Source: an uncultured Ignavibacteriota bacterium (GTDB lineage Bacteria > Bacteroidota > Ignavibacteria > UBA10030 > UBA8401). Taken from it: a DNA stretch of 64,000 bases. The position numbers and the translations under genes were made by a program. Each line of letters begins with the position of its first letter. Within the stretch, counting starts at the first letter, position 1. Location of the stretch: NCBI GenBank assembly GCA_903884005.1, contig CAISDA010000083.1, positions 124,001 through 188,000 on the forward strand. The letters run 5' to 3'. The notes below the pieces were generated by a model. It saw nothing but the letters and a program-made list of their open reading frames with translations, was not told the origin of the DNA and made no database searches. Of this stretch, positions 52,225-64,000 are shown piece by piece.

Positions 52225-52557
52225 ATGAAGTTCGAAGTTACCAAAAATGCGAACAGCGTTGTGCTCGTTGTCAAAGAACGGAAACTGGACGTGTCGGTGT
52301 CTCCGGAACTGAAGGGAGAATTCATTCTCCTCTGCCGGCCGACGGTGAAAACTCTGATCGTGGATTTGGGTGACGTCGAATTTTGCGACAGCTCGGGACT
52401 CAGTGCGCTGCTCATTGCCGAACGGCTCATGCGCCAGCAAGGCGGCAAAGTCAAACTCGTGGGCGTGCACAAAAAAGTGCTGTCGCTGCTGAAAATCTCA
52501 CAGCTCGACAAGGTCTTCCCCGTGTTCGAGACTGTCGCAAAAGCCGAAAAGAATTGA
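52225..52557 (+). CDS. STAS-domain anti-sigma-factor antagonist-like protein
   Basis: 110 residues, one STAS domain. The phospho-acceptor motif DSSGLSALL gives Ser56 as the likely target (the same place as in SpoIIAA and RsbV). TGGAGGA stands just before the ATG. In partner switches the unphosphorylated antagonist binds the RsbW-like kinase and frees its other client. A kinase (55135) and a PP2C phosphatase (61961) are encoded downstream, so the three parts of a switch lie within 11 kb, split only by a symporter gene and the Pel-like genes. Confidence 0.88.
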   Translation: MKFEVTKNANSVVLVVKERKLDVSVSPELKGEFILLCRPTVKTLIVDLGDVEFCDSSGLSALLIAERLMRQQGGKVKLVGVHKKVLSLLKISQLDKVFPVFETVAKAEKN

Positions 52558-54223: not shown

Positions 54224-55105
54224 GTGCGCACCCTGAGTCCATACCCATTGCATATAGTTTACGGTCTCTCACTCGTCCTCATCTCCTTGTGGTCAATCGG
54301 CTGTGGGCACACACCGGCACCGAAGCCGATGAGTACTCGTGCGGCAGTCGGCGGCGTTCAACGCTTCGGCGTCCAATTTTCGGGCGAGTACAAGCTGGCG
54401 GAGATGGCGCGGTACCAGATGATGTTCCTCGATCCCGATCAGGCGGGCATTCACGACGCCGATTCGATCACCGCACGCGGAGGGCTTCCGGTCGCCTATC
54501 TCAATATCGGCGAGGCAGAAGCATACCGGTGGTTTTATGCGGAGATTCTCAAGGAGTGGATGCTGGCACCCAATCCGAATTGGAAGGACCATTTTTACAT
54601 CGATGTGAATAAACCGGAATGGCACGCGCTGCTGCTCCGTAAAGTGCTTCCGGCAATTTTTCAAAAAGGGTTCAGCGGTGTGTTCCTGGATATGGTGGAT
54701 GTCTCCAGCCCCGACTTGTATCCCATGCTTCAGCCCGGTGTGATATCGCTGATACGCGAGATACGCGAAGCGTATCCGGCGAAAATCATCATCATGAACA
54801 ACGGCACATGTATTGCCGGCGCGGTGAGCGAGCTCATCGACGGCATCGTCGTGGAAAGTGTGTTCGCCACCTATGATTTCGCCTCCAAGACGTATATGCC
54901 CGTCAATGCCGGTGCTTCGGCAGCCCGATGCGCCGAATTACAGCTGTTGATGAAATCAACCGGCATGAAAATTTTCGCCATCGACTATGCACAGCCCGGC
55001 GACACGCTGACGGCGCTCTTGGCCGCTCAGAAGTCGTCACAACAGGGATTTTTACCGTTCGTCAGTACGATCGAATTAAACGCATTGCCGAAACCACTTC
55101 ACTGA
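54224..55105 (+). CDS. TM1410/GH114-like lipoprotein glycoside hydrolase
   Basis: 293 residues, GTG start at 54224, lipobox Cys27 in WSIGC. The mature part is a TIM-barrel-like domain of the TM1410/GH114 type: PVAYLNIGEAEAYRW near 90, NPNWKDHFYIDVNKPEWH, then GVFLDMVDV with Asp156 and DGIVVESVF with Glu211. The Asp-Glu spacing (about 55) is close to that I recall for the acid/nucleophile pair of GH114 endo-alpha-1,4-galactosaminidases and of the PelA hydrolase domain (about 58). It would cut Pel-like aminosugar polymer outside the inner membrane. First gene of the operon. Confidence 0.75.
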   Translation: MRTLSPYPLHIVYGLSLVLISLWSIGCGHTPAPKPMSTRAAVGGVQRFGVQFSGEYKLAEMARYQMMFLDPDQAGIHDADSITARGGLPVAYLNIGEAEAYRWFYAEILKEWMLAPNPNWKDHFYIDVNKPEWHALLLRKVLPAIFQKGFSGVFLDMVDVSSPDLYPMLQPGVISLIREIREAYPAKIIIMNNGTCIAGAVSELIDGIVVESVFATYDFASKTYMPVNAGASAARCAELQLLMKSTGMKIFAIDYAQPGDTLTALLAAQKSSQQGFLPFVSTIELNALPKPLH

Positions 55106-55134
55106 CAACCCCTTACGATTGATTGGCGGCCGGT

Positions 55135-55548
55135 ATGGATGCACGTTCATCATTTCTTTGCACTCCCGATAAGGTCAAAGATGTCCGCGACTGGATCGCC
55201 GCCTCGCTCGTCGGCCATGCGGTAGACTCGGAGATCATCACGAAAATATTGCTGGCCGCGAGCGAGGCGATCACCAATTGCGTCGTGCACGCCTATAAAG
55301 CCACGCGTGAAGGAAGAGTGGATGTCGCCATCCGCTTCAAGGACGGCGAGGTCGAGCTGACGGTGCGCGACTACGGATCGGGACTGCGGATGGAACAGTA
55401 CGACACGCCCGATACCGAAAAAGCCTCGGAGGGCGGCTACGGCATTTATTTAATCAGATCGCTCATGGACGATGTGCAGCTCGTGCCGCATACCGATGGG
55501 ACGGAATTGACAATGCGCATTTCTACGGAGCCCGCACGCACACCATGA
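55135..55548 (+). CDS. RsbW-like serine-protein kinase (anti-sigma-factor type)
   Basis: 137 residues from ATG 55135; a TTG at 55123 is possible but less likely. HATPase_c_2 fold: N-box E44AITN48, G1 motif D79YGSG83, and Gly-rich GGYGIYLIRSLMD (100-112). These are the residues of RsbW/SpoIIAB kinases, which phosphorylate a STAS antagonist. The ATGA at 55545-55548 joins its stop to the first pelF-like start, so kinase and glycosyltransferase are translationally coupled. No sigma factor is near, so the client could be a Pel protein. This is the key oddity of the operon. Confidence 0.9.
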   Translation: MDARSSFLCTPDKVKDVRDWIAASLVGHAVDSEIITKILLAASEAITNCVVHAYKATREGRVDVAIRFKDGEVELTVRDYGSGLRMEQYDTPDTEKASEGGYGIYLIRSLMDDVQLVPHTDGTELTMRISTEPARTP

Positions 55549-56750
55549 CCGATATCTGTCTTCTGCTCGAGGGAACATATCCGTATAAAACAGGCGGCGT
55601 ATCCGCCTGGGTCGATACGCTGGTGAAAGGCCTGCCGGAACTGAGCTTTTCTGTCGCCCATTTGTATTACGGCCAGGAGCCGACACGCGTTCGCTATCAG
55701 TCTACCGCCAACATGCTTGGCACGACCGCCATTTCGCTCAACGCCTCGCCCGGCTCATCACCCCTGACAATCGCCCTCGATACGCTGCTGGACCAAATCC
55801 CGCGTGCGCGAATTTATCATGCGCTGTCCACTGGGTTTGCAGGATATCTGGGAACCGCCCTTAAGCGATCCCGCACCGGCGCGTTTATTGTGACAGAACA
55901 TGGACTGTATTGGCGTGAAGCGGAATTAGGCGTCGGCGAATTGGAATGCGGATTCAAGATCGTCGATACCCAGTCGGGCTCGCTGCATTTGGGCAGGACC
56001 TGGAGCAGCTGGAGTGACACGTTCCGCACACTGGCCGTCGACGCATATGGGGCAGCCGATGCGATCACGACCGTTTGTGAATTCAACCGGCGCCAACAGC
56101 TCGCCTTGGGGGCACAGGAGGATAAATCGACCGTCATCGCCAACGGCACAGTGATGCCTGCGGCACACGCTGTGCGATCAATCGCCGGCATCGCGGATGC
56201 GCACATTGCGCTCGTGGGCCGCGTGGCACCGCTGAAGGACATTAAGACATTCATCCGCGCATGCGCTTATGCGCAAGAGTTCATACCTCGCGCGCGCTGG
56301 TCGGTGATCGGGCCGACAGACCACGACCCGCAGTACTTTCAGGAATGCATGGCGCTCGCAGATTCGCTCTCGCTCGCACATTTCTCTTTCATCGGCGAGG
56401 TCCCGATGTACGAGTGGTATCCTCGCATCGATGCGGTTGTCTTGACAAGTGCAAGCGAAGCCCAGCCGCTGGCGCTCCTGGAGGCCATGGCCAACTCCAT
56501 ACCCGTCGTCTCAACAGACGTGGGAGGCGTTGCGGAGCTTGTGACGCCCGAGGGAATGGCGCACGGAGGACTCCTCTGCCCACCGTCCGATCCGGACGCA
56601 TGCGCGCAAGCCATCGTGCGGCTGCTGACCGATCCGGAACTCTACGCCGCGTGTTCGGCGGCCGGGCGGCGCATCGTGGAACGAAGCCATGACAGCAATG
56701 GTATGATCGATTCATACAGAACATTATACAGACGATTTCTTTTCGAATGA
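55545..56750 (+). CDS. PelF-like GT4 glycosyltransferase, first copy
   Basis: 401 residues. The N-terminus DICLLLEGTYPYKTGGVSAWVDTLV is the PelF hallmark; later VGRVAPLKDIKTFIRAC near 223 and the E-x7-E pair SEAQPLALLEAM near 304 with PVVSTDVGGVAELV. PelF makes the Pel polymer from UDP-sugars in the cytoplasm. At 401 residues it is about 100 shorter than Pseudomonas PelF (about 507) and than its neighbour; the missing part lies in the central N-domain region. Start overlaps the kinase stop. Confidence 0.88.
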   Translation: MTDICLLLEGTYPYKTGGVSAWVDTLVKGLPELSFSVAHLYYGQEPTRVRYQSTANMLGTTAISLNASPGSSPLTIALDTLLDQIPRARIYHALSTGFAGYLGTALKRSRTGAFIVTEHGLYWREAELGVGELECGFKIVDTQSGSLHLGRTWSSWSDTFRTLAVDAYGAADAITTVCEFNRRQQLALGAQEDKSTVIANGTVMPAAHAVRSIAGIADAHIALVGRVAPLKDIKTFIRACAYAQEFIPRARWSVIGPTDHDPQYFQECMALADSLSLAHFSFIGEVPMYEWYPRIDAVVLTSASEAQPLALLEAMANSIPVVSTDVGGVAELVTPEGMAHGGLLCPPSDPDACAQAIVRLLTDPELYAACSAAGRRIVERSHDSNGMIDSYRTLYRRFLFE

Positions 56751-56754
56751 AACG

Positions 56755-58287
56755 ATGAAAGCACTTAAGCCCCTTTCCGTACTCCTGGTCACCGAAGGCA
56801 CGTATCCGTACGTTGGCGGCGGCGTGAGTACGTGGTGCGACAGCCTCGTGAGAGAATTGAAGTCCGTCCATTTTTCAATCCTCGCCGTGACCGGCACACC
56901 CATTACGACGATGAAATATGTGCTGCCGTCAAACGTGAGGCACTTGCGTCAGGTGCCGCTGTGGGGCAGCGAAGAACCGTCGGAGTATATCCTTCCCGAA
57001 CGGTCGTTCGCCGATACGTATACGAACCGGACTGAAACAACGGACCAGATGGTGGGCAAATATTTCATACCCATTTTCGAGGATCTTCTGGAAGATCTTG
57101 TCAACCCGAACAAAAATGCTCCTCACCCGGAAGTGATACATCGGCTGTATAAATATTTTCGGCGCTTTGAATACAAAACGACGTTCCGATCTCGTCTGAC
57201 ATGGGAGACGTTCCGCGCGATGTTGCTGCGAACCGCGGGCCAATGGAGCGACATCGCCGAAGAACAACCCAACCTGTTCGATGTCATCACGGCGCTCCGG
57301 TGGCTCTACAGTTTCCTGCTGCCGCTGAGCGTTGCGCTGCCGAGAACCGACATCGCGCATGCGACACTGGCGAGTCCGTCGTGTCTCGCAGTGGTCGCGG
57401 CCAAATATGAGTTCGGCGCGGCGGTCGTTGTTACCGATCACGGCATCTTCATACGCGAACGCTACATTGCCCTTTCGGCCGAAACGTTCAGCAGATTTTC
57501 AAAACGGTTTCTGCTGAATTTGTCTGCGTACGCAAGCCGCGTGATCTACGCCTGCGCCGACCAGATCTCGCCTGTCTGCGATTACAACCATCGGTGGGAA
57601 TTGCGCTTCGGAGGGTCGGCTGACCGCATCAAGACGATCTATAACGGCATCGACCCGGGTGTGTTCACCCCGCGCGAGAAGCCGGAAAAGACGCGCAATC
57701 GTCCGACGGTGGTCGCGGTAGCGCGCATTTTTCCGCTGAAGGACATCGAAACAATGATCCGGTCCTGTGCTGCGGCGCGGGAGGAAATTCCCGATATTCA
57801 GTACATCGTGTACGGTCCAACGGACGTCGATCTGCCCTATACACAAAAATGCCGGCAGTTGATCGACGAGCATTCACTGCAGCAGCATTTTATGTTCGGC
57901 GGATTCCATCCCAAACCGCACGAAGTGTATAACGAAGGCGACATCAGCATTCTCTCGAGCATCTCGGAAGGGTTCCCGTATACGGTCATCGAGTCGATGG
58001 CGTGTGCGCGGCCTGTCGTTTCGACCGACGTAGGCGGAGTGCCGGAGGCACTCGAGGGATTCGGGATCATGGCTCGTCCCCGCGATTTCACCAGCCTCGC
58101 GCAGGGCGTTGTACAATTGCTCCGCGACCATGAACTCCGCCAGGGGCTCGGAAAAATTTCACGCGACCGCGTGCTTCTCCGGTTCAGAACCACGCTGGCC
58201 ATGACCCAATACATGCAGTCGTATCTCGCCTTGAGCGGCAGACAGGCGCAGGACGTTCCCGCCGGCGCTCAAGGGGCATATGCATAA
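56755..58287 (+). CDS. PelF-like GT4 glycosyltransferase, second copy
   Basis: 510 residues, the size of classical PelF. It starts LSVLLVTEGTYPYVGGGVSTWCDSLV, has the insert typical of PelF, then AVARIFPLKDIETMIRSC near 320 and the E-x7-E pair SEGFPYTVIESM near 403, PVVSTDVGGVPEAL. It lies 4 bases after the first copy and overlaps the PelG-like gene by 8 bases. Two PelF-type enzymes in tandem suggest two sugars or a catalytic/regulatory pair. Confidence 0.9.
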   Translation: MKALKPLSVLLVTEGTYPYVGGGVSTWCDSLVRELKSVHFSILAVTGTPITTMKYVLPSNVRHLRQVPLWGSEEPSEYILPERSFADTYTNRTETTDQMVGKYFIPIFEDLLEDLVNPNKNAPHPEVIHRLYKYFRRFEYKTTFRSRLTWETFRAMLLRTAGQWSDIAEEQPNLFDVITALRWLYSFLLPLSVALPRTDIAHATLASPSCLAVVAAKYEFGAAVVVTDHGIFIRERYIALSAETFSRFSKRFLLNLSAYASRVIYACADQISPVCDYNHRWELRFGGSADRIKTIYNGIDPGVFTPREKPEKTRNRPTVVAVARIFPLKDIETMIRSCAAAREEIPDIQYIVYGPTDVDLPYTQKCRQLIDEHSLQQHFMFGGFHPKPHEVYNEGDISILSSISEGFPYTVIESMACARPVVSTDVGGVPEALEGFGIMARPRDFTSLAQGVVQLLRDHELRQGLGKISRDRVLLRFRTTLAMTQYMQSYLALSGRQAQDVPAGAQGAYA

Positions 58288-59983
58288 TGATTCTACCACG
58301 ATCCGATTATTGAACGGAATGACCGAGACAACAGCAACCGACATACAGCTACCGGCAGCGGACGATGCGGCCTCCATGCTTCGCTCCAAGCACAAAGTGC
58401 TTGCCGAACATGAGGTCGAACTGGCTCGCGAAGTGTTCACGCTCATCGGCGAACCGCTGGATGTCTGGGCCGTGGCCGCAACGCTCGAGAGCATCGGCCT
58501 GCGCGATCTCGATGCGGTGACGTTATACCAGCGCCCGAACCTCTTCACGCTCGCGGAGCGTATTCTCTATCTGATACACGTTGATCCGACGCGGACGCGA
58601 TCCCGTGAGGAGCTTCCTCCGGTTCGCACGCGCGAGACCCATATGGCGCAGGCGCTCAAATTTTATTTGCGCGGCGCTTCGACAGCGCTGCCAATGGCGG
58701 GGCAAATTGCGTCGGTATTGCTGCTGCGCTATTCGCTGTGGGCATGGGTGGATTTCACCGAATCGCAGGCAACGGTGGTCACCATCGGAACCATCCTGAG
58801 CTTCATCATTACGGCCGGCTTTATTCAATCAATCGGCCGTGAAGGTTCCCGGTATATGGGCCATAAAAACTATTTTCTGGCTCACAAAATATCGATGACG
58901 ATCGTCCGCGCCGGCACGGCGTCGGTTGTGCTCTTCGGCGTATTTTTGTACACACTGAATCTCGTCTTCCCCTATTACGACGAACGGCTGATGATCATCA
59001 GCCTTATGTATTATTTTTTCCTCTCGGAACTATGGCTCTTCTCGTCGCTGGCGTACGTGCTCGGCAAAGTGTTCGCCGTCTTCGTGTGCACGACGCTTGG
59101 CGTTGTGCCGGTCTACTTCGTGATGGAGTATACACGCTTCGGCATTTATGCGGCCCATGCGTCGGGCATGGCAACGGCTATTCTCGCCATGGCGGTCTAT
59201 ACTGTCGCAACGCTGCGGCGCATGGCGCACAAAACGGACGCAGCCCTGAGGACGAGCAGGCTTCCCCACGCACCGGTGCGCACATACTTGGTCGCTCCGT
59301 ATTTTATCTATGGCCTGCTGTATTTCCTCAATCTCTTTATCGACAGGATCGTCAGCTGGTCTGCACCCAACCCGGAACCGCTCCCCTATGTGATCTGGTT
59401 CAGAACGTCATACGAATTGGGAATGGACTGGGCGCTGCTCTCGCTTGTGTTGACACTCGCCACCATGGAATACATCATTCACGAATTTTCATTTCATCAG
59501 GTGCCAAAGCAGCGCAGCATCCGCAACGACGATGTGCACGACTATATCACATTCTACAAGCGCTTTTATGTCAAGCATCTCATCGCGATCGTTCTCCTTG
59601 GTCTGTTCAGCATTGTCGCATGCTACTTCGGCGTCCTCTCGCTGCGGCGATTCGATTATATACTCGAAGTCAGGGAATTTTTCAGCAGTCCGGTCACATT
59701 TCACGTATTTTGGGCCGCGGCATTCGGATATTATTTTACCGCGCTCGGTTTGTACAATTGTCTTTTTTTCTTTACCTTATCGCGTCCTGAATTCGCGATC
59801 CGCTCCATCACCGCAGGACTGGCTGCCAATGTCGTGGTCAGCCTCGTGCTGAGCCGTTGGGTCCAGTATGAATACGGCGTGGGTGGGCTCATCGTCGGGG
59901 GAATCGTGTTTGCCGCGATGACAATGCAGTATGCATTTAAATTCTTCGACCGGCTCGATTACTATTATTATGCGGCATACTAA
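58280..59983 (+). CDS. PelG-like MOP-superfamily exporter with N-terminal extension
   Basis: 567 residues. About 12 transmembrane helices begin near residue 130; the pattern (QIASVLLLRYSLWAWVDFTESQATVV, TAGFIQSIGREGSRYMGHKNYFLAHKIS in sequence order) is that of PelG, the inner-membrane transporter of Pel. Pseudomonas PelG has about 456 residues, so roughly 110-120 N-terminal residues are extra; they are charged and helical (VLAEHEVELAREVFTLIGEP) and could dock the glycosyltransferases or the kinase. Confidence 0.85.
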   Translation: MHNDSTTIRLLNGMTETTATDIQLPAADDAASMLRSKHKVLAEHEVELAREVFTLIGEPLDVWAVAATLESIGLRDLDAVTLYQRPNLFTLAERILYLIHVDPTRTRSREELPPVRTRETHMAQALKFYLRGASTALPMAGQIASVLLLRYSLWAWVDFTESQATVVTIGTILSFIITAGFIQSIGREGSRYMGHKNYFLAHKISMTIVRAGTASVVLFGVFLYTLNLVFPYYDERLMIISLMYYFFLSELWLFSSLAYVLGKVFAVFVCTTLGVVPVYFVMEYTRFGIYAAHASGMATAILAMAVYTVATLRRMAHKTDAALRTSRLPHAPVRTYLVAPYFIYGLLYFLNLFIDRIVSWSAPNPEPLPYVIWFRTSYELGMDWALLSLVLTLATMEYIIHEFSFHQVPKQRSIRNDDVHDYITFYKRFYVKHLIAIVLLGLFSIVACYFGVLSLRRFDYILEVREFFSSPVTFHVFWAAAFGYYFTALGLYNCLFFFTLSRPEFAIRSITAGLAANVVVSLVLSRWVQYEYGVGGLIVGGIVFAAMTMQYAFKFFDRLDYYYYAAY

Positions 59984-59989
59984 CGGACG

Positions 59990-61948
59990 ATGACCGACTA
60001 TCATACCATATTGATCCTCTCGATACTCAGACTGCTCCTGGCCTGCGGTATTCTTTTCACAATCATGCCCGCGCTCCTGTTCCCGCCCTTTCCGTCGAAG
60101 AGCGCGATGGAACGGTTTATCGGCATGGGCCTCTATATGGCCGGCATGACGATGGTCTTTATGCACGGGTTCGTCCTGCTTAAATTGAATGATAATATCG
60201 CCGTTCTCATTATCATCATATGGTTCATCGCATTCAAATGGTGGAACATCTACCGGCGTCAGCATGTGGGGCTGGTGCTGATCAAGGCGGTTCTCCTGCG
60301 GTGGATAGAGATCCTGGCGCGTCCGTCGACATTGAAACGGTTGGGCACCAGTCTCGGCGATTTTGGAAAACGCAAGATGATGATGCGTATGACGTACGGC
60401 GTCGCATTCATCTCGATCATCGCCGCAAGCGTGGCCCTTCGGATCGGGCCAATTTGGAACCACCCCGCGCCGCTCTCGAGTGAATATTATGAAACCCTTG
60501 AACATGTAAAACATTTGCAGATCAATGAAATGTACCGGGGAGGCAGTCATATTCCCATCGGGATGCCGATCCTGATCAGCGCCTTGTGCACTGTGTCGCA
60601 GGTGAATCCAACTCTTGCCGTGCATTTCTTCGGCATCATCTCTGCGATCCTCTTGTGCGCCTCCATTTTTTTCAGCGTCTACGCCGCTACACGCAACGGC
60701 ATCGAGGCGGCCCTGGCCTCCATCATTTTCGCCGTCGCCTATGGCATGCTGCCGGGATCGGTGGATCACCAAATTGAGGCCGACAGCATGACGCTGGCCG
60801 TTGTGTTCTTGCTCCCCTCGCTGGTGTTTTTCATCAACTTTGTGACGCACGGCGGGCGCGCCCGTCTCGTTGCATCGATACTGGGACTTGTCGCCGTCGC
60901 ATCGATCAATCTGTTTGCCGGCTGTATCGGCATCGCTGCGGCAACGGTCATTCTGTGCTCGTCATTCTTCATACTGCCCTCCATGCCGAGACTGCGCTCC
61001 CGGTTGTTGCTCATCAACGTCGCGAGCACGGCAGCCGCTCTCACAGCGATCGGAGTGTGCTGGATGTTCGTGTCGAACGATCGATCCGCTCAGAACGTGC
61101 TGAACGTTATTTTTTATGATCAGCATTTCTATCGTTACGCGCTGACCGAGAAGCTCCGTGTCGCCTCCTTTTGCAGTATGAGCGCGGGAGTATTTCTCGC
61201 GCTTATCGCCTTCAGCATGTACCCTTCAGTGCGGAAACTATGGCATCTCCATCTCATCGGCTGGGGGTTTACGGGCATGCTGCTCCTTGTTTTGGCAACA
61301 CCGGCACTGCTCGGTCTTGACGAGATCATACCAACAGCACAAATTCTCTTCATCCTGTCTGTGGTCGTTGCGCTGGGGATCGGATTGTGCGCCGGCGTCC
61401 TCCTGGATACGATGCAGGGAGCATTGAACACCGTCGTCGTATCGGTGCCGGCGAGACAGTGGATGAGATCGCTCTCAGGCGGGGCCATCATCGCATCCGC
61501 GATCCTCATCTTTCACGGGGCACCGGCTTCGATATTGCAGACAGCGGAACCCGACGGTTTCGTGAGAAACCTGTATATGATAGAACGGACTTATATTCCG
61601 TATCAATGGACTATTGTTGCGCATCGAGGTATATTACTTGCTGGAATGAATCGGGGCCGATTCCTGGATTACGATTATTTTACGGCGCGATACGATCCCG
61701 TCACGTACCGCCATGGAACCAAGGATGCCATCCCTACTGCCCTGGTGTTCATTTTCATCGAGAAGAACAAAGATGTCACGGAAATATCATCGGAGCTCAC
61801 CCCCGTCAATCGCAATGCGATGGCGCAAGCACGGGAATGGTGTGAAACGTATCGAAAGACACACGACGACATGACGGTGTTTTTCAGCGACGATACAATT
61901 ATTATTTATGAACTACGAGACCCGCATGTGCCATCGCTGCGTGTCTAA
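59990..61948 (+). CDS. polytopic membrane protein of the Pel-like operon, unknown
   Basis: 652 residues with about 13-15 transmembrane helices and a C-terminal extracytoplasmic part of about 100 residues. Hydrophilic loops contain HVKHLQINEMYRGGSHIPIGMPILISAL and DQHFYRYALTEKLRVASF, and the helix pattern is like GT-C or polymerase-type membrane proteins, but no catalytic motif is certain. It does not look like PelD or PelE (those have TPR, GAF or GGDEF). It is tightly packed (6 bases after the exporter and 12 before the phosphatase), so it is part of the machine. Confidence 0.7.
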   Translation: MTDYHTILILSILRLLLACGILFTIMPALLFPPFPSKSAMERFIGMGLYMAGMTMVFMHGFVLLKLNDNIAVLIIIIWFIAFKWWNIYRRQHVGLVLIKAVLLRWIEILARPSTLKRLGTSLGDFGKRKMMMRMTYGVAFISIIAASVALRIGPIWNHPAPLSSEYYETLEHVKHLQINEMYRGGSHIPIGMPILISALCTVSQVNPTLAVHFFGIISAILLCASIFFSVYAATRNGIEAALASIIFAVAYGMLPGSVDHQIEADSMTLAVVFLLPSLVFFINFVTHGGRARLVASILGLVAVASINLFAGCIGIAAATVILCSSFFILPSMPRLRSRLLLINVASTAAALTAIGVCWMFVSNDRSAQNVLNVIFYDQHFYRYALTEKLRVASFCSMSAGVFLALIAFSMYPSVRKLWHLHLIGWGFTGMLLLVLATPALLGLDEIIPTAQILFILSVVVALGIGLCAGVLLDTMQGALNTVVVSVPARQWMRSLSGGAIIASAILIFHGAPASILQTAEPDGFVRNLYMIERTYIPYQWTIVAHRGILLAGMNRGRFLDYDYFTARYDPVTYRHGTKDAIPTALVFIFIEKNKDVTEISSELTPVNRNAMAQAREWCETYRKTHDDMTVFFSDDTIIIYELRDPHVPSLRV

Positions 61949-61960
61949 CGGACAAGAGCT

Positions 61961-63511
61961 ATGATCGCCAGTACATTATTACATGATGCAGTGTCACGGT
62001 TTTTACTGAATGTTGCCGCATACACGGGCATACCGTTCTACCTGATGGATCATGAGGGCAATATTGTCGTGCGGACGCCCGCCGGCGAACAGGGCTCCTA
62101 CGCATCCGAGATCGGATTCGGCACGGATCGAAAAATTACGCTGCGCGACAATACGCTGTGGCATCTCTATACGATGGACCACCCGATTCCCGGCACCGAG
62201 ATCCTGCGGGAACAAGTGCTGGACTTTACGGCGGAGGTCATCCTCTTCATTATCACCAATGAAGAGGAAGTGCAGAATCTGGCGACCGAATTGTTGGAGC
62301 GATATCAGGAACTGCACGTCCTGTACGATGTCATCAACGACGTCAGCACGGTGTTGAGCGAAAAAGAGATCTGTATCGCCGTGCTCCGCAAGGCCATGCA
62401 AACGCTGGATGTGGCGAGCGGAGCCGTTGTCTACGTCGATACGAAAGGAAGGCAAGACGTTCATTGCAAACAGGAAGGCGGATACGTCCTGAACGATGAC
62501 AGCCTGATGCGGTACGCCGATCAGGTGCGCGTTTCAAACTCGCACATTATTGTCGAACGAACGCAGACAGAAATGAACGGAGTTGCCGCCCAGTCGCCCG
62601 CAGTGCTCGCCGTTCCGATCGTCGTCAATAACACGTCGATCGGAGCGATGATCGTCACGGCGAAACGAAATGACGGAGACTTTACCTCCGGCGACCGGAT
62701 TTCTCTCTCCGCACTGGCCGGCTATTTGGGCATCGCCATCACATCGGCGCAGCTCATCAAGGAAGCGCACGATGCCGATGCCCTCCGGCGAGAATTCGAC
62801 TTCGCGCGCAAGATTCAACAGAGCCTGTTGCCGAAGCACCTGCCCGAGATCGCTTCGCTCGAGATCGCAGCGCGCTGCATCGCGGCAACCGAAGTGGGCG
62901 GCGATCTGTTTATGTTTCTGCCGACCGGCCCCGGCGAGTGGGCCTTCGGCGTCGCCGATGTCGCCGGGCACGGCCTGGGGGCGGCATTCATTCTTGCATC
63001 GCTTCGCAGCATCCTGCGCTCGGAATGCCGGCGGGGCACGATGCTGGACGAAAGCATTCGAAGCACCAATGATATTCTGTGTGAGGATACGCAGGAAAGT
63101 GAATTGTTCGCAACACTGTTCATGGCCACCTACAACGACACAACGCGCACATTGCGCACGGTCAATGCCGGACACCCTCCCGGCCTGTTGTGGCGGGCTG
63201 CAACACAGTCGATCGAGCAGCTCGAGCACGGCGGCATTGTTGTCGGGTTATTCGTTGACGAGTGTTACGGATATGACGAACTGACACTTGCCCCCGGCGA
63301 CACGCTCGTGATGTATACCGACGGCATCATCGAATGCAAAAACACGGGTGGCGAGCTGTATGGGATCGAGCGGCTGCACGCCTGCTTCGCGCGTCTCGTC
63401 TCCGGGTGCGCCGGAGACGTCCTTCAGGGCATCCTGGACGACATCGGCGATTTTCATCAGGGAGTTCGTATGAATGATGATGTGACAATTGTTGTCGTGA
63501 AGGCACGATAG
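61961..63511 (+). CDS. GAF-SpoIIE (RsbU-like) PP2C phosphatase
   Basis: 516 residues, soluble. N-terminal sensor-like region (about 1-115, with GIPFYLMDHEGNIVVRTPAG), a coiled coil, a GAF domain (about 125-270), then the SpoIIE phosphatase domain (about 280-516) with ARKIQQSLLPK, metal Asp in TEVGGDLFMF and VADVAGHGLGAAF, and MYTDGIIECKN. Such proteins remove phosphate from STAS antagonists, resetting an RsbW switch. It fits the kinase at 55135 and the STAS protein at 52225. The GAF domain may sense a small ligand. Confidence 0.92.
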   Translation: MIASTLLHDAVSRFLLNVAAYTGIPFYLMDHEGNIVVRTPAGEQGSYASEIGFGTDRKITLRDNTLWHLYTMDHPIPGTEILREQVLDFTAEVILFIITNEEEVQNLATELLERYQELHVLYDVINDVSTVLSEKEICIAVLRKAMQTLDVASGAVVYVDTKGRQDVHCKQEGGYVLNDDSLMRYADQVRVSNSHIIVERTQTEMNGVAAQSPAVLAVPIVVNNTSIGAMIVTAKRNDGDFTSGDRISLSALAGYLGIAITSAQLIKEAHDADALRREFDFARKIQQSLLPKHLPEIASLEIAARCIAATEVGGDLFMFLPTGPGEWAFGVADVAGHGLGAAFILASLRSILRSECRRGTMLDESIRSTNDILCEDTQESELFATLFMATYNDTTRTLRTVNAGHPPGLLWRAATQSIEQLEHGGIVVGLFVDECYGYDELTLAPGDTLVMYTDGIIECKNTGGELYGIERLHACFARLVSGCAGDVLQGILDDIGDFHQGVRMNDDVTIVVVKAR

Positions 63512-63592
63512 CGGATACGTGCATCACATGGCGCGCCGTCCCGAGCCGTGCGCAAAGACGGTGAACACATATTGATAGAAGGATTTTTTTCC

Positions 63593-63970
63593 ATGACAAC
63601 AAAAACCATTCTCATCGTCGACGACGACAGCAACATCCGGCGCGTCCTTTCTTTTCTGCTTGAACGCACGGGGTGCAAGGTGTACACCGCCGTGAACGGC
63701 GAAGAAGGCCTGCAGCGCACGCACGAGGTGAAACCGGACCTTGTCATCACCGATGCGATGATGCCGATGAAAGACGGATTCGAACTCTGCCGCGATCTGC
63801 GCAGCGATCCGCAATACGCCGCGTTGAAGATCATTATGCTCACGGCACGGGACCAGGCCACAGGCAGCAATCCGACGCTGGACTTTGGCGCGGATCTCTG
63901 TTTAATGAAACCGTTCAATCCGACGGAAATATTGCGCATTGTAAAAGAAATGCTGCTGCTGCAGCCCTAA
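63593..63970 (+). CDS. single-domain response regulator (CheY-like)
   Basis: 125 residues from ATG 63593. Receiver with DDD at 10-12, phospho-acceptor Asp54 in VITDAMMPMKDG, Thr in MLTARD, and Lys in LMKPFNP. No output domain. It follows the phosphatase by 81 bases and may be the last gene of the operon or start a separate unit; the window ends 30 bases later, so what it works with is not visible. It probably controls the partner switch or another kinase. Confidence 0.92.
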   Translation: MTTKTILIVDDDSNIRRVLSFLLERTGCKVYTAVNGEEGLQRTHEVKPDLVITDAMMPMKDGFELCRDLRSDPQYAALKIIMLTARDQATGSNPTLDFGADLCLMKPFNPTEILRIVKEMLLLQP

Positions 63971-64000
63971 CCGCCCTCCTCCACTTATGGGAAAAAATAT

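Follow-up and report, generated by a model that had tools for sequence, protein, structure and literature searches.

How is the synthesis of a Pel-like polysaccharide controlled when the genes of a partner switch lie within its operon? Pel is the textbook example of a polysaccharide gated by cyclic di-GMP (c-di-GMP), and the classical targets of RsbW/RsbV/RsbU systems are sigma factors. The question is raised by an operon in a stretch of 64,000 nucleotides (positions 124,001 to 188,000 of contig CAISDA010000083.1, hereafter the window) from an uncultured Ignavibacteriota bacterium, in which genes for PelF- and PelG-like proteins are accompanied by those for an RsbW-like kinase and a SpoIIE-type phosphatase. 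We consider it likely that a Pel-type machine is here governed by a Ser/Thr partner switch of its own, independent of c-di-GMP; what is directly seen is the gene content, the synteny, the intact motifs and the absence of PelD, PilZ and an intact GGDEF protein in the host.

Eight open reading frames on the forward strand occupy positions 54224 to 63970 with intergenic gaps of −8 to +36 bp. They encode, in this order, a GH114/GH166-type hydrolase homologous to the hydrolase domain of PelA and starting with a hydrophobic, lipobox-like N-terminus (54224..55105; PF03537, E=4e-19), an RsbW/SpoIIAB-type serine kinase of the HATPase_c_2 family (55123..55548; PF13581, E=5e-28), the short GT4 glycosyltransferase PelF1 of 401 amino acids (aa) (55545..56750), the 510-aa GT4 glycosyltransferase PelF2 (56755..58287), a divergent PelG-like protein predicted to be an exporter with multiple transmembrane segments (58280..59983), a 652-aa membrane protein (59990..61948), a GAF-SpoIIE phosphatase of the PP2C/RsbU type (61961..63511; PF07228, E=3e-49, and GAF) and a stand-alone CheY-like receiver (63548..63970; PF00072, E=1e-26). 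The tight eight-gene operon proposed in the first-pass annotation was thus recovered at the very same coordinates and with significant matches to the families named, barely so for PelG. Its gene list, right for these eight, lacked what follows beyond the window, as on the host contig the operon continues with a GAF/HD-GYP-like gene encoding 516 aa, 16 bp after the receiver gene (forward strand; 63987..64000 in the window, where it runs out; L003:987-2537; HD_5, E=1e-19), then after 12 bp with a STAS gene encoding 115 aa (L003:2550-2897, about 1.5 kb beyond the window end; STAS, E=2e-18) and after a further 6 bp with a gene for a 1342-aa protein combining DUF2194 and tetratricopeptide repeats (TPRs) (L003:2904-6932; DUF2194, E=6e-75). 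The whole operon is one of 11 genes.

The signature residues of the switch proteins were largely retained. The kinase has conserved N-box (E..N..H), DxG and GYG motifs, corresponding to the N, G1 and G2 boxes, the second G of DxGxG being replaced in the kinases of Kryptonia and KSB1. The metal-site motifs GGD, DVxGHG, TDG and DD of the SpoIIE phosphatase are intact, and the receiver retains its DDD, TD and K motifs. In the in-operon STAS protein, D54-S55-S56 is invariant in the alignment and TIGR00377 is matched above its cut-off. The STAS partner had initially been placed 2 kb upstream, and a STAS protein is indeed encoded there (52225..52557, forward strand), but it is probably outside the operon: it is only 20% identical to the in-operon STAS, which shares 40-58% identity with the STAS of relatives, and it is not found beside the operon in those relatives, so that the downstream gene is the operon's own STAS. 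In the host and in genome G204 this STAS has a gene of its own at the same position, and in Kryptonia and KSB1 it makes up the C-terminal part of the HD-GYP protein, a fusion which links switch and operon on grounds other than gene order. Furthermore, each of the nine loci measured has the stop codon of the kinase gene overlapping the start of pelF1, by either 4 or 8 bp. A second complete cluster, SpoIIE-RsbW-STAS-SpoIIE, is located elsewhere in the host genome, and the pel-borne set is therefore an additional and dedicated one. The GH114 and RsbW sequences of G204 run together in one open frame of 432 aa (L016:5229-6527), likely owing to a sequencing error or an internal start; as a single protein it would place the kinase outside the cytoplasm. 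The HD-GYP::STAS fusions of Kryptonia (L028:15200-17275, L017:14999-17050) contain a Cys-rich linker, CW...C..CPVY...CW...C...C..C, which matches no family and is possibly a metal or redox sensor.

PelD (PF16963) was absent from the host genome, including the regions beyond the window, and from nine other genomes, and the same search did detect the positive control, a plasmid-borne canonical pel locus. PilZ was found neither in the host nor in the Kryptonia-type genomes searched. The host encodes a single GGDEF protein, which has GRYDDGSF in place of the signature GG[DE]EF; the signature is likewise lost in the sole GGDEF protein of G204 and of each of the two Kryptonia-type genomes inspected. 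One GGDEF match each was obtained in three further relatives, signatures having been read in the host, G204, these two Kryptonia-type genomes and the KSB1 genome tested. The view that GGDEF and PilZ proteins are missing is hence correct at the locus and nearly so genome-wide, and, judging from these signatures, some switch-bearing hosts seem unable to make c-di-GMP. The sole, degenerate GGDEF protein is conserved (L063:1370-3343, L064, L065, L066), and its gene lies no more than a few kb from one for a sigma factor. The HD-GYP protein of the operon does not carry the motifs of a phosphodiesterase either: because HDxGK reads HDVGM and the last metal-site Asp is Glu, it probably does not act as an ordinary phosphodiesterase. 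Among the homologues aligned, the K of HDxGK is lost (M, Y or L), the last metal Asp is Glu in all and HH is changed to HQ in some.

Among 245 genomes of the class, 10 were found to encode homologues of PelG; the figures were 27 out of 395 for the whole phylum and 4 out of 82 for the phylum to which the KSB1 genome belongs. The order RsbW-PelF1-PelF2-PelG-membrane protein-SpoIIE-receiver-HDGYP-(STAS)-DUF2194 was found in 12 genomes belonging to two groups, the class of the window (including Kryptonia) and KSB1, namely the host, G204, seven genomes of one Kryptonia-type genus, with two loci partial at contig ends, and three of KSB1, with one contig starting inside the kinase gene. Identities among these 12 are mostly 25-60%. 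The GH114 gene precedes the kinase gene in the window's class, and none was seen beside the kinase in KSB1. The linkage of the kinase and phosphatase genes to pelF in these relatives upholds the first-pass description of a Pel-like operon carrying an RsbW/RsbU-type switch.

Another 12 clusters of the phylum consist of a PelF2-PelG-GH114-membrane protein-DUF2194 core devoid of RsbW, SpoIIE and STAS. Eight of them, of the Balneola type, have an HD-GYP-like gene, accompanied in seven by response-regulator and/or histidine-kinase genes upstream, and the remaining four show no regulator recognisable by similarity. In the PelG tree the 12 switch-less clusters group together with support (100/98), and the opposite side holds the switch-bearing loci along with an Anaerolineales-labelled metagenome-assembled genome (MAG) that lacks the switch, a short deltaproteobacterial contig and two PelG genes that stand alone. 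The simplest reading would be that the switch was gained once and then lost in some cases; as the sequences are related, the locus counts do not represent independent events. The annotation of plasmid-borne pelF loci of Deinococcus and Thermus shows no partner switch. As other families of the phylum have PelF/PelG clusters with different regulators or with no regulator, the switch appears to be a clade-specific plug-in, and the comparison suggests that the polymer machine may be a fixed core onto which different controls (a partner switch, a two-component system or none) are plugged. In G521 (L080:13273-17088) an intact Pel-like cluster is followed by a decayed second copy with broken PelG, PelF2 and membrane-protein fragments, and in Kapaibacterium/Ignavibacteria MAGs a stand-alone PelG-like exporter is encoded near a tsaD-like gene, without pelF (L022:9955-11643, L033:9905-11539).

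Does the core itself deserve the name Pel? Both PelF-like proteins combine DUF3492 and GT1 in Pfam and score 281 (PelF1) and 172 bits (PelF2) with the PelF model NF038011 of NCBIfam, for which a cut-off of 100 bits was used, and PelF2 is 46-62% identical among loci of the window's class, KSB1 and the Balneola type. PelG adjoins PelF in every complete cluster read, and its match to PF16933 in the host reaches 29.9 bits against a cut-off of 29; a second PelG match, at G000:C33, was rejected since, judging by sequence, it sits in an MFS-type transporter. The closest solved relatives of the GH114 protein, which keeps the catalytic-type motifs FLD/FID and E, are PelA (9cgy, 1e-16; 5tcb, 4e-16) and then TM1410. 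A membrane protein of 652 aa without any Pfam or NCBIfam match follows PelG. The first 18 PDB matches of its AlphaFold2 (AF2) model are all GT-C enzymes or GT-C-containing complexes (STT3/PglB, DPY19, ALG9/12, ArnT, PMT), and the protein probably belongs to the GT-C superfamily, although only as a lead because the model is poor (pLDDT 57). GT-C glycosyl- and oligosaccharyltransferases are a class outside classical Pel operons. This multi-transmembrane family, found in nearly all complete core clusters, is conserved, unannotated and has a fixed place in Pel-like clusters (window 59990-61948, L025:5654-7633, L027:14067-16124, L030:3001-5109). It was also considered as a candidate PelE and discarded for want of significant similarity; one PelE compared by BLAST alone gave no significant match, and a simple sequence comparison revealed no similarity to PelC. 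The sole structural match of the DUF2194 region is 9zau (E=1e-51), the PelA_DA of Bacillus cereus, a demonstrated de-N-acetylase (PMC13254593), whose metal and catalytic motifs DD, HxxxH and HPDD are retained, so that both the hydrolase and the deacetylase of PelA type are represented. In the same protein the TPRs are clear, and a weak match to PgaA (E=0.006) is the one hint of a possible outer-membrane barrel. In G204 an epimerase gene with TviC and GalE as best matches lies between the two pelF genes, and a similar gene occupies the same position in the KSB1 loci. From these likenesses the locus would work like Pel; we do not assign it full membership of the Pel systems, since the search for PelD was negative and membership would also require a product consisting of partly deacetylated alpha-1,4-GalNAc.

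In the mechanism that we propose, the operon products, that is the PelA-type hydrolase, the two PelF, PelG, the GT-C-like protein and the PelA-deacetylase/PelB-like fusion, would build, trim, deacetylate and export a Pel-like amino-sugar polymer, and the complete partner switch would stand in for PelD and c-di-GMP. The RsbW-like kinase is predicted to phosphorylate the conserved Ser of the DSS motif in the STAS protein or domain, and the GAF-SpoIIE phosphatase would remove the phosphate on a cue sensed by GAF, perhaps aided by the stand-alone receiver, such that the phosphorylation state of STAS would set the binding partners of both STAS and the kinase. The likeliest outputs would be post-translational: STAS might act with or through the degenerate HD-GYP protein, its fusion partner in most relatives, and the kinase, translationally coupled to the first subunit PelF1, might act at the PelF/PelG synthase. 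Phosphorylation, its polarity, the synthase as target and control of polymer making by the switch are all what we infer from sequence. More tentatively, it is conceivable that the kinase itself holds and releases PelF1 or the synthase complex, with STAS on a catalytically dead HD-GYP scaffold as its counter-partner and Ser phosphorylation replacing the binding of a cyclic dinucleotide.

Several observations weigh against such a dedicated c-di-GMP-independent switch. Pel-like clusters without it exist, and it is thus dispensable for the machine as such; the KSB1 genome G245 has intact GGDEF and a PilZ protein, so that hosts lacking c-di-GMP are not the only ones to carry the switch; PelG is barely detected, and PelE and PelC were not found in the simple comparison; and the sequence would fit either the synthase/HD-GYP or a sigma factor as direct target. 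The divergent PelG, together with the paralogous PelF pair, the extra GT-C-like protein and the missing PelE and PelC, would also fit a non-Pel hexosamine polysaccharide made by a PelF/PelG-like synthase and a GT-C enzyme, and this we regard as quite possible, if not the favoured identity; it is compatible with the switch model, and the PelA-type hydrolase, the PelA_DA-type deacetylase with its conserved active site and the TviC/GalE-like epimerase inside the G204 operon, with its counterpart in KSB1, speak against it. That the regulatory genes do no more than share a transcript with the core genes and serve some general function unconnected with control of the polymer could be argued from the other SpoIIE and RsbW genes of the host and from the related clusters lacking the switch in other families of the phylum, but is very improbable given a gene order kept in 12 genomes of two groups despite low identity, the fusion of STAS to the operon HD-GYP and the conserved kinase-pelF1 overlap.

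The main rival is a classical anti-sigma system, in which the kinase would hold a sigma factor, STAS would free it and the module would control transcription of the operon or of a regulon. Sigma factors related to SigB/F/G do occur below the cut-off in the genomes tested (e.g. G000:C79:91062, 246 aa), but the cut-off was reached in none of ten genomes, no sigma-factor gene was seen in the operon of any relative, and the STAS::HD-GYP fusion and the kinase-pelF1 overlap point instead to the enzyme complex; on balance we hold this explanation to be unlikely, though it deserves the most serious attention among those that concern the switch. Control of the operon by c-di-GMP or another cyclic nucleotide through the HD-GYP protein, the switch being a minor modulator, appears distinctly less probable still: the HD_5 domain is clearly akin to cyclic-dinucleotide phosphodiesterases such as the 3'3'-cGAMP-specific 5z7c and one KSB1 relative has intact GGDEF proteins, but the aligned HD-GYP homologues have lost HDxGK and the last metal Asp, and the host lacks both PilZ and an intact GGDEF.

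With the Pel operons pelABCDEFG of Pseudomonas aeruginosa and pelDEA_DAFG of B. cereus and Streptococcus, the host locus has in common PelF, a PelG-family exporter, a PelA-type hydrolase and de-N-acetylase and a TPR secretion partner. It differs from them in having no detectable PelD or PelE, two PelF, a GT-C-like protein and a deacetylase fused to the TPR protein, as well as in containing a partner switch and a degenerate HD-GYP. Described Pel systems use PelD, and for the streptococcal PelD, which lacks a GGDEF domain, the control was stated as undetermined (PMC12345266); the present locus, conserved and Pel-like and situated in a host devoid of any intact diguanylate cyclase, bears on this question of Pel regulation in the absence of c-di-GMP and supplies a kinase, a phosphatase and a STAS protein as concrete proteins for testing. 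The nearest precedent is SypE/SypA of the syp locus of Vibrio fischeri, so that a partner switch encoded within a polysaccharide locus is already on record: as in the host, an RsbW-type kinase, a PP2C phosphatase and a STAS protein with a conserved Ser are encoded in the locus. However, SypE unites kinase and phosphatase in one protein instead of two genes, syp is not of the Pel type, and host-type loci have STAS fused to or beside a degenerate HD-GYP. Unphosphorylated SypA promotes biofilm formation, its target not having been identified (PMC8256260, PMC4517449). The SiaABCD system of P. aeruginosa likewise controls biofilm through a phosphatase/kinase/SiaC switch, but does so by activating the diguanylate cyclase SiaD (PMC8457831), and no intact diguanylate cyclase was found in the host. 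RsbU/RsbW/RsbV and SpoIIE/SpoIIAB/SpoIIAA share the three protein families and their motifs with the host switch, whereas the host operon has no sigma factor and is linked to polysaccharide synthesis. In agreement with the first-pass statement that no such Pel system had been described, no paper was found joining PelF with STAS or anti-anti-sigma proteins, or partner switching with Pel loci, in a search outside which most subscription journals lay.

Downstream of the operon, on the opposite strand, a CHASE2-class III nucleotide cyclase, a DUF4384 protein and a WD40-caspase (C14) protein are encoded in a row (L003:7556-12741).

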